A DNA stretch of 64,000 bases from Candidatus Sulfopaludibacter sp. SbA3 (lineage in GTDB: Bacteria; Acidobacteriota; Terriglobia; Bryobacterales; Bryobacteraceae), in assembly GCA_945890485.1 (NCBI GenBank), contig CAMDCN010000004.1:62001-126000 (forward strand). Direction: 5' to 3'. Within the stretch, counting starts at the first letter, position 1; each line of letters begins with the position of its first letter. The translations under genes and the position numbers were made by a program. Shown piece by piece: positions 13,031 to 20,970 of the stretch. The notes below the pieces were generated by a model, which was given only the letters and a program-made list of their open reading frames with translations, was not told where the DNA came from and ran no database searches.

Positions 13031-13882
13031 ATGACGCGCCGCCAACTGCTGGCCTCCCTCCTCGCCCCCGAACCGATTATCGACATCCATCAGCACACCC
13101 CGTACACCGGACGTACGGACGAAGAACTCGTCCGGCACCAGGAGGTGATGGGAGTGACGATGTCCTTCCTCTTGCCCGCCGGAAAGAAGTATGGCCTTGC
13201 GGCCGGTGCGGGAGGAAACGACATCTGCGTGCGGCTCGCCAAGCAGTATCCGCAGCGGTTTAAGTTCTTCGCCAACGAGGCGCCCGATGAGCCCGACGCC
13301 CGGCGCACCATGGAGAAGTATCTGAAGCTCGGCGCCATCGGCATTGGCGAGCAGAAGTTCCCCCTCGATTGCGATGGACCGGAGGTCCGCGCCGTGGCGG
13401 AGTTGGCCCGGGACTACAAGGTGCCCGTCCTGCTCCATTTCGAACACAACACCTACAATCTTGGTTTCAACCGGTTCTATCGCGTCCTGGAAAAATACCC
13501 GACCGTAAACTTCATCGGTCATGCGCAGACGTGGTGGGGCAACATCGACGCCGCACTCGAACAGGAAATACTCTATCCGCGGACGAAAGTGACGCCCGGC
13601 GGCATCACCGACCGCTACCTGGCCAACTACCCCAACATGTTCGCCGACATGAGCGCGGGCAGCGGCCTGAACGCGCTGCTCCGCGATGAGGATCACGCGC
13701 GCGGCTTCCTGGATCGCCATCAGAACAAACTGCTCTATGGGAGCGACTGCAACGACCGGGACGGCCAGGGCGAGCGTTGCAGCGGCGGCAAGCAGATCGA
13801 AGCCATCCGCCGTTTGGCGCCGAACAAAGCGGCCGAGCGCAAAATTCTGTACGAGAACTCGAAGCGGCTGTTCCGCCTCTAA
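13031..13882 (+). CDS. amidohydrolase family protein
   Basis: A 283-residue protein of the amidohydrolase-2 superfamily. It begins with a short twin-arginine-like stretch (TRRQLLASLLAPEP) and then the metal motif DIHQH. Later conserved elements are VLLHFEH, FIGHAQTWWGN and LLYGSDCND, the last holding the usual catalytic Asp. The reaction is not recognisable. The start ATG 13031 was chosen over upstream codons because the preceding residues overlap the divergent gene and do not look protein-like. It converges with the cupredoxin-like gene with a 4-base overlap. Confidence 0.78.
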   Translation: MTRRQLLASLLAPEPIIDIHQHTPYTGRTDEELVRHQEVMGVTMSFLLPAGKKYGLAAGAGGNDICVRLAKQYPQRFKFFANEAPDEPDARRTMEKYLKLGAIGIGEQKFPLDCDGPEVRAVAELARDYKVPVLLHFEHNTYNLGFNRFYRVLEKYPTVNFIGHAQTWWGNIDAALEQEILYPRTKVTPGGITDRYLANYPNMFADMSAGSGLNALLRDEDHARGFLDRHQNKLLYGSDCNDRDGQGERCSGGKQIEAIRRLAPNKAAERKILYENSKRLFRL

Positions 13883-14589
13883 TCGCGGAAAGCCAAAGCC
13901 ACGGAGGCCGGCTTACCGGCTTCCACCATCAACTCCTGCGTGAGTTCACCCAGCGACTCGTGCCAAACGGCTAGCGTATATTTGCCGGGCGGCAGGTCTG
14001 GCCATGCGAATTTGCCGGCCCCATCCGTCACGGCCAGAAACGGATGCTCCAGCACGCCGATGTAGGACCGCATCCAGTTATGCACGTTGCACTTCACGGG
14101 AATCATTACCTCGGGGACCGCGAATTTTCGCTGGAGATCGGCCGCTCCGGGAGGTTGCTGCTGGTTCCAATCGCGATTTGCCTTCGGTGTCGGGTGGATA
14201 TTATGCGACACCGGGTCTGCGTTCTTCACAGCCAGCGTCTGGCCTGTGCGCAGCGCCAATACCCGCGGAACGAACTGGCAGCCACGCTGTTCGAGCACAA
14301 CGGCTTCGGCGGGCGCCGGGAACTTGCGATTTTCGAGTCCGGTTTTGATATAAACGAAAGCGTTCGCCAGGCCGCCCCCGTCGGAAACCAGGATTCGATC
14401 CTCCGAGACCGGCCCGGAATGCAGTTTTTGGCATTCTTCCTCGGCCTCCATCGAGAGCACCTTCGAGGCGCGAGTGGCGCCGTTGTAGGTGATCGTGCCA
14501 GACAAAGGCACTCCCGGCACCACCGGTTCCGGTACGGCACAGCCTGACATCCCGACCACTGCGGCAACCAATGCAATGCGGATTCTCAT
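13879..14589 (-). CDS. cupredoxin-like lipoprotein
   Basis: A 236-residue exported lipoprotein (lipobox ending at C17, GMSGC). Residues about 95-180 form a plastocyanin-like domain: NADPVSHN supplies a candidate copper ligand H129, and PVKCNVHNWM supplies C167, H170 and M173. This Cys-His-Met arrangement with an upstream His is the blue-copper pattern. The C-terminal part (185-236, AVTDGAGKFAWPDLPPGKYTLAVWH) is a carboxypeptidase-regulatory/transthyretin-like beta-sandwich. It ends a five-gene operon and overlaps the di-haem peroxidase gene by ATGA. Inferred role: small electron carrier facing the periplasm, perhaps serving the peroxidase. Confidence 0.8.
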   Translation of the reverse strand: MRIRIALVAAVVGMSGCAVPEPVVPGVPLSGTITYNGATRASKVLSMEAEEECQKLHSGPVSEDRILVSDGGGLANAFVYIKTGLENRKFPAPAEAVVLEQRGCQFVPRVLALRTGQTLAVKNADPVSHNIHPTPKANRDWNQQQPPGAADLQRKFAVPEVMIPVKCNVHNWMRSYIGVLEHPFLAVTDGAGKFAWPDLPPGKYTLAVWHESLGELTQELMVEAGKPASVALAFRD

Positions 14590-18712: not shown

Positions 18713-20260
18713 ATGAGAAGATCCCTGCTCGCTCTTATTTTCTTTACCGCGGCCGCGCTTGTCTCGGCCTCTGACTGGCTGACGGACGGTGGCGACAGCA
18801 AACGCAACAACTGGCAGAAAGACGAAACCATCCTCACCAAGGCCAACGTCAAGGGCATGCAACTGCTCTGGAAGAAGAAACTCGACAACGAGCCTCGCCA
18901 GATGCACTCCCTGCTCGAACCGCTCGTGATCGGCAAGATCAATACGAAAAGCGGACCCAAGGAGATGGTGATCCAGGCGGGCGTCTCCGATAATGTCTAC
19001 GCGCTCGACGCCAAAACCGGCGACCTGCTCTGGAAACGCCACTTCGAAAGCACCTACTCCGACCCCATTGGCGGCCGCGGCCCCAGCGTCCTTTGCCCCG
19101 GCGGCATGACCGCCAACGTCACCATCGGCCCCGGCGATCAGCCCGGCTCCTACAAGATCTACGCCGCCTCCTGGGACGGCCGCCTGCATATCCTCAACGC
19201 CGCCGATGGCGAACCGCTTTCACCCCCGTTGAAGTTCATGCCGCCCAACGGCAAGCCCTATGCCTTGAACCTGGTGAACAACGTGATCTATACGCACAGC
19301 GCCCAAGGCTGTGGCGGCAATCCAAACACGGCATACACCTACGACCTCGCCACGCACAAAGTCGGCAGCTGGGGCCCGGCCGGCGGAGGCATGTGGGGCC
19401 GCTCCGGTCCCGCCGTCAGCAAGGACCTCGTGATGTACACCGGCACCGGCGACGGACGCTGGGACCCGGAGAACGGCGCCTACGGCAACGGCATCATCGG
19501 CGTGAAGCAAAACCCGGAAACGAAGTCTTTGGAGCTCGTCGACTACTACGGCCCGTCGAACGCCGAGTGGCTTTGGAAGCGCGATCTCGACATGCAAGTC
19601 ACCCCGGCGATCTTCGATTTCAAAGGTCGCGAGTACATGATCGACGCGAGCAAGGAATGCCGCATTTATCTCATGGATACCGAGTCGATTGGCGGCGATG
19701 ACCACCGCACCCCGGCCTATCGCACGCCGCTGATCTGCAACGAAATCGTCGACTTCGCCGAAGCGGGCATCTGGGGCTCTCTGGCTACGTGGGAAGACGC
19801 CAAAGGAACCCGCTGGATCCTCACCCCGTTCTGGGGCGCCAAACACTCCAAGTACAAGGCGCCGCTTGAGTACGGCCCCGTGAAGAAAGGCGCCATCGCA
19901 GCCTTCAAAATGGAACTTGTCAACGGCAAACCGGTGTTGCAACCGGCATGGGTTTCCCGCGACATGAACCAAGCCGAACCGCCCATCATCGCCAACGGCA
20001 TGATCTTCGCTTACGGCAGCGGCGAAAACACCGCACAGGCGTTCCCGGACGTGGGCCTCGATTTCCGCATGGAGCGGCGCATACCGCTATCGACCCACGC
20101 GGTCCTCTATGTGCTCGACGCCGAAACCGGCAAAGAGCTCTGGAACAGCGGCAAACAGATCACGACCTGGAACCACTGGAGCGGCCTCGGTCTCGCCAAC
20201 GGACAGGTCTACATCAACACCTACGACGGCAACTTGTATTGTTTCGGCTTGAAGAAATGA
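18713..20260 (+). CDS. PQQ-type beta-propeller protein, exported (paralogue B)
   Basis: A 515-residue secreted protein with signal peptide (1-20, LVSAS). It starts [15 protein letters not shown] and has repeated blade motifs [39 protein letters not shown] and a closing [12 protein letters not shown]. The family is the pyrrolo-quinoline-quinone-like repeat (PQQ_2). [10 protein letters not shown] and the end are shared with the divergent paralogue at 17069-18634. Two Cys-containing spots ([15 protein letters not shown]) could bind cofactor or form disulfides. The SGNH-like gene overlaps its stop by ATGA, so the two are translationally coupled. Enzymatic function is not established. Confidence 0.83.
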
Positions 20261-20970
20261 AGTTCGCGGGCCTCCTGCTTCTCGTGGCGTTGAGTAATCC
20301 GCTCGGCGCCCAGCAGCCAACGATGGAACAGCTCGAAACCGAGCTTGACGCTTACCGCCGGGTCCTGCTCGACTGGGGTGGTTTGACGCGCTATGGAAGT
20401 GACAATGCTGAGCTGAGGCCGCAGGCCGGTCGCGTTGTCTTTCTCGGCGATGAAATCACCGAAAATTGGGGGCCGGAGTTCTTCCTTGGAAAACCGTATT
20501 TGAACCGGGGAATTACTCGGCAAACGGCCGCGCAGATGTTGGTTCGTTTTCGGCAGGATGTAATCTCGCTGCAGCCCGCCGTCGTGGTTATCCAGGCCGG
20601 TACCAACGACTTGGCCAGCGTCATGGGCCCATCGACCGAGGGCACCATGGCCGAGCACTTCATGTCGATGGTCGAACTCGCCAAGGCCCACAACATAAAG
20701 GTGGTGCTTGCTTCCGTAACGCCCGTCTGCGACTGCTTCACCAAAATTACGGGGCGTCGTCCGGTCGGAAAACTTCTCGGCCTCAATGGCTGGCTAAAGC
20801 AATACGCCGCCCAGAACGGCCTAGTCTATCTCGATTTCTATTCGGCTCTGGTGGAAGGCCGTTTCTTCAAGAAAAGTCTCACGGTCGACGGTCTGGTTCC
20901 CAATGCCGCCGGTTACGCCTTGATGGCGCCTCTGGCGGAGAAGGCCATCGCCGAAGCGTTGGCCCGCTAG
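20257..20970 (+). CDS. SGNH/GDSL-hydrolase-like protein with catalytic Ser and His replaced
   Basis: A 237-residue exported protein (signal peptide 1-18, NPLGAQ) with the flavodoxin-like SGNH fold. Block I reads [11 protein letters not shown], where family members have GDSIT: the nucleophile position is Glu (E66). Block II Gly (G85, [10 protein letters not shown]) and block III Asn (N117, QAGTNDL) are kept. Block V reads [10 protein letters not shown], where DGLHPN is expected: Asp stays (D211) but the catalytic His is Val (V214). Thus the esterase machinery is lost while the oxyanion residues remain, suggesting a binding role. ATG overlaps the stop of the propeller gene (ATGA); the 3' end overlaps the convergent SH3 gene by four bases. 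Confidence 0.85.

Follow-up and report, generated by a model that had tools for sequence, protein, structure and literature searches.

The group of seven genes at positions 13879-20970 of a 64,000-nucleotide stretch from the acidobacterium Candidatus Sulfopaludibacter sp. SbA3 raises the question which reaction its exported propeller, haem and copper proteins serve. The stretch as a whole, called the window here (G000:C4:62001-126000), is part of a 7.1-Mb draft genome, G000. The reading favoured here, to which a probability of roughly one half is given, is that of a periplasmic dehydrogenase system in which a rebuilt quinoprotein site in the propeller PRL passes electrons to a cytochrome c and a copper protein. 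Its basis is predicted fold, residue conservation, pairing and co-occurrence, from which we infer catalysis, cofactor, electron path, complex formation and the parts played by YVT, DHM and SGN. The initial annotation had described five minus-strand genes facing two others, and all seven open reading frames were found in this arrangement:

18713..20260, plus strand: PRL, an exported quinoprotein-type propeller and candidate catalytic subunit
17069..18634, minus strand: PRs, an exported propeller, the degenerate partner of PRL
16613..17059, minus strand: CYH, an exported mono-haem cytochrome c fused to a ComEA-type helix-hairpin-helix domain
15581..16606, minus strand: YVT, a lipoprotein-like YVTN beta-propeller
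14586..15578, minus strand: DHM, a lipoprotein-like di-haem c-type protein of the MauG/MbnH/peroxidase class
13879..14589, minus strand: CUP, a lipoprotein-like amicyanin-type cupredoxin with a C-terminal carboxypeptidase-regulatory-like domain
20257..20970, plus strand: SGN, an exported SGNH/GDSL-type hydrolase
18635..18712: the head-to-head gap of 78 bp between the two divergent transcription units, without a sigma-70-like site in the scan

The AlphaFold2 model of PRL, computed with 68 sequences, reached a predicted local distance difference test score (pLDDT) of 85.5 and a predicted template modelling score (pTM) of 0.88. Among the 50 best rows of a Foldseek comparison with the PDB the first 13 were dehydrogenases dependent on pyrroloquinoline quinone (PQQ), with 1kb0 at E 7e-15, and BamB came next; the propeller fold was recovered and is not exclusive to the dehydrogenases. 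PRL was then aligned by hhalign with four canonical PQQ-dependent alcohol dehydrogenase (PQQ-ADH) references from related genomes, in four modes each. In all 16 runs D291 fell on the column of the catalytic Asp and K314 on the Arg/Lys column, which correspond to D303 and R331 of methanol dehydrogenase (MDH). D293, two residues after D291, stood in 16/16 runs at the position of the second Asp of the lanthanide type, and W228 lay on the stacking Trp in 12/16 (three of the four references). Lanthanide enzymes carry such an extra Asp two residues after the catalytic one, according to a published account (PMC10875860). C128, C200, W228, D247, D291, D293 and K314 are invariant in 68/68 PRL sequences. 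By alignment PRL is a diverged propeller of the PQQ-dehydrogenase type with its catalytic-type Asp pair aligned and invariant, a result at odds with the earlier statement that the locus has no recognisable dehydrogenase.

The same residues separate two classes of more distant propellers. They comprise 51 proteins taken from 25 regions that are distant or paralogous, of which 20 belong to other families (17 genomes); the 27 that scored above 380 bits to PRL are called PRL-type, the remaining 24 being partners. W228, D247, D291, D293 and K314 are present in 27/27 of the PRL-type propellers; among the 24 partners W228 and D291 each occur in none. C128 and C200 occur together in 24 of the 27 and are missing together in 3, and for C316 and C342 the corresponding numbers are 22 and 5; this paired presence and absence fits plain disulfides. 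The three proteins without C128 and C200 are the paralogues in L174 (7024), L177 (8850) and L181 (9200), which have W228, D247, the Asp pair and the Lys and represent a natural variant of the PRL site. Proteins of the PRL type in L067 and L178-L180 lack C316 and C342, lost as a pair.

PRs was modelled with a pLDDT of 82.7 and a pTM of 0.80. Its catalytic-type residues are mostly lost, and the natural reading of the sequences of PRL and PRs is that of one active and one dead relative. The notion that partner propellers in general keep the Cys pair was given up: it holds for PRs, with Cys at position 128 in 62/63 and at 200 in 63/63, and in the distant partners Cys is found at column 128 in 16/24 and at column 200 in 24/24.

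Pairing of the two propellers was examined in a sample of 121 genomes of the window's family. A close PRL, defined by E 2.2e-235 or better plus fragments in G067 and G103, occurs in 40 genomes (25 genera); at E 1e-30 PRL matches 67/121, and the 27 extra ones, found through distant paralogues or short pieces, were counted among the 81 others. With cut-offs of E below 1e-60 for PRs, 1e-40 for CYH, 1e-20 for CUP and 1e-100 for DHM, close PRs was found in 39/40 PRL genomes versus 0/81 others (Fisher 5e-31), close CYH in 35/40 versus 2/81 (1e-22), DHM in 28/40 versus 4/81 (5e-14) and CUP, where the cut-off lumps a close type with a more distant one (about 40-45%), in 39/40 versus 30/81 (1e-11). All values are uncorrected for phylogeny, without a species tree, and the cut-offs were chosen once the lists had been seen. 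Four pairs of genomes, each pair from a single genus, differ in having a close PRL (G042/G098, G055/G104, G109/G069 and G070/G110), and G110, a draft 90% complete, has a close CYH (72%) and no PRL match.

The genes also tend to be neighbours. In the window PRs, CYH, YVT, DHM and CUP follow each other from 18634 downwards with spacers of 9, 6, 2 and -4 bp, and PRL and SGN overlap by 4 bp. Of 142 named loci found 80 were kept, mostly from metagenome-assembled genomes of Bryobacterales and other Acidobacteria, and within 6.5 kb of PRL they contain PRs in 74, SGN in 69, CYH in 49, YVT in 20, DHM in 16 and CUP in 17. In the same order the counts are 37, 35, 26, 10, 11 and 11 for the 40 loci that extend 6.5 kb or more to either side of PRL, and 33, 31, 22, 6, 7 and 7 for the 36 of those that remain when the closest relatives are left out. 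The arrangement is not due to chance, and from these counts the seven-gene form is a minority arrangement. In the search for a further conserved neighbour the 2726 frames of the 80 loci were clustered; five of the clusters reached six loci or more. Named by sequence reading, they were TonB-receptor-like (17 loci), Gfo/Idh-like (11 and 6), DUF1080-like (7) and, in 7 loci that are all closely related to the window, a housekeeping-like frame; none was adopted.

Distances of at most 8 kb were found for PRL-PRs in 31/38 placed genomes, CYH-PRs in 23/34, CYH-CUP in 16/35 and PRL-CUP in 10/37. PRL and PRs lie apart in seven genomes, as seen in the fetched surroundings of both genes in G042, G052 and G118 and of PRs only in G028 and G106; in G059 and G023 perhaps only contig ends part them. 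In four relatives (L234-L237) CYH-YVT-DHM-CUP has the same order as in the window and stands apart from PRL and PRs. L245-L248 and L250 have CUP-YVT without DHM, two of them, L248 and L250, being contigs shorter than 5 kb; DHM is the part most readily dispensed with. The locus resolves into two parts, a PRL-PRs core and CYH-YVT-DHM-CUP, and as these lie apart in relatives the window is one merged arrangement of separable parts. The compact locus of the initial annotation is real in the window and is one of several arrangements, PRL with SGN, PRs, and CYH-YVT-DHM-CUP being able to lie apart in one genome; the gene order, which should have been conserved nowhere if that annotation were mistaken, is kept in relatives.

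In a wider sample of the phylum, a PRL-like protein was matched at E 1e-30 or better in 21/396 genomes, one of which is G000. Twenty regions were fetched from 17 of the other 20 genomes, and a second propeller stands beside PRL in 19/20 (L164 starts at a contig end) and CYH in 14/20. In one of them, L179, which belongs to another family, the propeller pair has DHM, CUP and YVT as neighbours.

In the mechanism proposed on these grounds PRL would be the catalytic subunit and oxidise a small substrate. Its site would be rebuilt, with one Cys for the vicinal pair of the canonical enzymes, a second Cys at the position of the Glu ligand and Asp for the Asn ligand, and would keep the catalytic-type Asp, the second Asp of the lanthanide type, the Arg/Lys and probably the stacking Trp. 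The simplest cofactor would be imported PQQ with Ca or a lanthanide. PRs, as a catalytically dead relative, would probably be a structural partner, as suggested by its near-perfect co-occurrence with PRL. Electrons would pass from PRL to CYH, a role suggested by co-occurrence and by the haem motif CKQCH; CYH matches HHH_3 at E 3.5e-13 and Cytochrome_CBB3 at E 0.003, the latter below the gathering score, and the helix-hairpin-helix domain may dock the cytochrome. CUP would give or take electrons, with CYH or DHM as counterpart. SGN (Lipase_GDSL_2, E 7.5e-20) might, more speculatively, free the substrate from an ester, as its place near PRL in 69/80 loci suggests.

CUP carries the motifs HN[IV]H and C-N-[VI]-H-x-W-M in 22/22 aligned sequences, in which His and Cys-x2-His-x2-Met presumably form the copper ligand pattern, and its Cys-His-Met spacing is that of an annotated amicyanin in L221. 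Pfam CarboxypepD_reg was matched at E 1.2e-6, below the gathering score, and a phmmer search of CUP against PDB sequences (E to 1) gave no match. YVT and, where present, DHM would belong to a second unit, in which DHM may be peroxidase-like or a modifying enzyme. YVT has six TIGR02276 repeats and is closest to the PQQ-catabolism-associated propeller model TIGR03866 (230 bits, cut-off 287), whose name ties the propeller to PQQ-dependent catabolism. DHM matches CCP_MauG at E 5e-58 and contains two CXXCH haem motifs, CASCH and CALCH (P0002). Tyr, not Met, occupies the position of the MauG axial ligand in 18/18 DHM sequences and in the annotated MauG of plasmid pLVM1 (L221), and a Tyr axial ligand where peroxidases have Met is presumably a MauG trait; it is not exclusive to MauG, as Tyr also stands there in L222, a plasmid protein with a peroxidase annotation. 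DHM was dropped as a general maturase of PRL, since 12/40 PRL genomes are without a close DHM, and of the earlier idea of a cofactor-maturing pathway there remains that DHM may act in this way, PRL not depending on it everywhere.

A number of results weigh against the dehydrogenase reading. The modelled fold of PRL by itself does not decide between a quinoprotein and a propeller of the BamB type: in VIA-align L-sorbose dehydrogenase 4mh1 (Z 28.9, root mean square deviation 2.9, 392 residues) ranks below BamB (Z about 30) and below YxaL and designed eight-bladed propellers (Z 32-34). The PRL profile gave weak matches in the PDB, with methanol dehydrogenase at E 0.0065 and BamB at E 0.009, and phmmer of PRL against PDB sequences (E to 0.01) gave none. 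Against the PQQ-ADH model TIGR03075 PRL scored 32.9 bits at a cut-off of 480, and among its Pfam matches to PQQ_2/PQQ repeats PQQ_2 (BamB) is the best. PRs matched YxaL and BamB best in Foldseek, PQQ-ADHs appearing from rank 9. Some of the partners keep catalytic-type residues: PRs has Asp, Asp and Lys at 291, 293 and 314 in 8, 7 and 15 of 63, and the distant partners have D247 in 4/24 and Lys at 314 in 10/24. PRL and PRs might on this evidence be a non-enzymatic, BamB/YxaL-like envelope scaffold or binding pair, with the adjoining redox genes serving something else. We regard this as unlikely: PRL has invariant polar residues at its site, which align with catalytic residues of PQQ-ADH, BamB has to our knowledge no such polar site, and the redox partners co-occur with PRL even when they are not adjacent to it.

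Other contrary results concern the site and the cofactor. In 16/16 hhalign runs C200 fell on the column of the Glu metal ligand and D247 on that of the Asn metal ligand, so that neither canonical residue is present; C200 also disposed of a mapping by eye of Q198 onto the Glu ligand and of the charge-conserving swap derived from it. The canonical PQQ-ADH set used for comparison was drawn from 38 loci and comprised 14 sequences, 12 after removal of near-duplicates, and its Asn count is given by construction as the filter demanded the Asn motif. This set has CC in 11/12 with one gap, whereas PRL has lost the vicinal pair and reads L-C-P in 68/68, C128 falling on the second Cys by hhalign and on the first in another alignment. 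In this other alignment the column of MDH Arg109 holds Ala in PRL. PqqC was over the cut-off in 6/121 genomes of the family, with PqqE in the same 6, and only one of the 40 PRL genomes (G091) has both, so that import of PQQ would be required. Across the phylum sample PqqC was over the cut-off in 17/396 genomes, three of which (G181, G360 and G400) are among the 21 with PRL. Import of PQQ is known in Gram-negative bacteria. The importer PqqU has among Acidobacteria been reported only from Vicinamibacteria (PMC12124388).

Together with the MauG-type Tyr of DHM and four His residues of PRL (H195, H331, H378 and H488) that are invariant in the 68 sequences, H331 and H488 being kept also in the 27 PRL-type propellers, these features of the site and of PQQ synthesis would suit a non-PQQ cofactor, such as a quinone derived from the protein itself or a metal with cysteine ligands, which DHM may mature where present. 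On the other side stand the 12 PRL genomes without a close DHM, the presence or absence of C128/C200 and C316/C342 as pairs, fitting disulfides, and the variation of H195 and H378 in the PRL-type propellers. Outside PQQ may also serve. G000 has no PqqC or PqqE over the cut-off and yet 44 PQQ-ADH family matches, 7 of them over the cut-off, and two of these family proteins that were aligned (L192 and L198) keep the PQQ-type residues; missing synthesis was for this reason rejected as proof of an empty site. It does not decide which cofactor PRL binds, and PQQ may come from outside. A cofactor other than PQQ seems to us doubtful. Equally tentative is the more far-reaching proposal that PRL and PRs represent a new class of oxidoreductase with the quinoprotein fold. 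They would form an active/dead heteropair that carries a non-PQQ cofactor, is connected to cytochrome c and to a copper protein of the amicyanin type, and occurs in several Acidobacteriota families.

That unrelated periplasmic genes of one acidobacterial lineage were merely inherited together is quite improbable. In favour of this idea, the co-occurrence was uncorrected for phylogeny, and the closest relatives have the flanks AMI, HGS and SH3 together with the locus. Against it, these flanks were not seen with the locus beyond those relatives, where PRL, PRs and CYH persist in varying orders and sometimes at great distance from each other, and the set of PRL, partner and CYH recurs in other families.

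Of these flanks, AMI, an amidohydrolase-type gene, and a frame with an HGSNAT-like acyltransferase domain (11909-13720 and 12923-13882) adjoin CUP. A secreted metalloprotease-like frame at 24977-26860 has, as read by eye, the motif HELGHALGLGH and a Thr/Pro-rich linker. The starts of three genes were refined, giving 17069-18634 for PRs, 14586-15578 for DHM and 20257-20970 for SGN; the frame of PRs with 706 amino acids extends to 19189, its first 185 codons being mostly antisense to PRL. Judged by eye, all seven products have signal peptides, and CUP, DHM and YVT have a Cys at a lipobox-like position, in agreement with the export signals and three lipoboxes annotated before. The family labels given then fit the profile matches, the cupredoxin label coming from ligand motifs alone as no profile named it. 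The promoter region said to serve both sides found no support: a sigma-70 scan of 18400-18900 was empty, a promoter and terminator scan of the 78-bp gap found nothing, and in several relatives PRL and PRs are not neighbours.

If the dehydrogenase reading is true, PQQ and lanthanide enzymology would gain a new active site, or the fold would be shown to work without PQQ. The apparently rebuilt, strictly conserved quinoprotein site occurs in several acidobacterial families, and PRL is the single protein to examine. G000 alone has the 44 PQQ-dehydrogenase family matches, without PQQ synthesis over the cut-off. No published account of the locus was found in searches of an open-licence library, and comparison was made with systems of known type.

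The acido-empty-quinoprotein family (group A, TIGR04528) shares with PRL the acidobacterial origin and the quinoprotein-type propeller, and its name implies absence of PQQ; PRL scored 44.1 bits and the PRs frame 16.6 at a cut-off of 650, whereas other G000 proteins are far closer, with 42 matches of up to 552 bits, none over the cut-off. Hydrazine synthase beta and gamma resemble YVT and DHM as a pair of YVTN propeller and MauG-like di-haem protein, but the scores, 135 bits for YVT (cut-off 560) and 38 bits for DHM (cut-off 625), are low. MbnH (TIGR04039) is the nearest NCBIfam model to DHM with 253 bits, under the cut-off of 363, and a search among the seven genes gave no MbnP-like one. With the PQQ-ADH and methanol dehydrogenases (TIGR03075; XoxF, PedH, MDH) PRL has in common the propeller fold, the aligned Asp, second Asp, Lys/Arg and Trp, and a c-type cytochrome gene close by. 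It differs from them in the missing vicinal Cys pair, Glu ligand and Arg at the Arg109 column, in its low score, in its degenerate partner and in the helix-hairpin-helix domain of the locus cytochrome. The mau system differs in MauA, MauD and MauE, none of which is among the seven genes, the only ones considered for this, in the MauG model TIGR03791 (DHM 233.9 bits, cut-off 443.85), and in its copper protein, CUP having a longer spacing region and a second domain. The second unit joins a di-haem protein that has the MauG-type Tyr to an amicyanin-type copper loop, a cytochrome c and a propeller; in this it resembles the mau wiring, with no methylamine dehydrogenase among the seven genes. The likeness of the copper, haem and quinoprotein-type modules to the wiring of amine and methanol dehydrogenases, which the initial annotation had pointed out, is borne out by this comparison.

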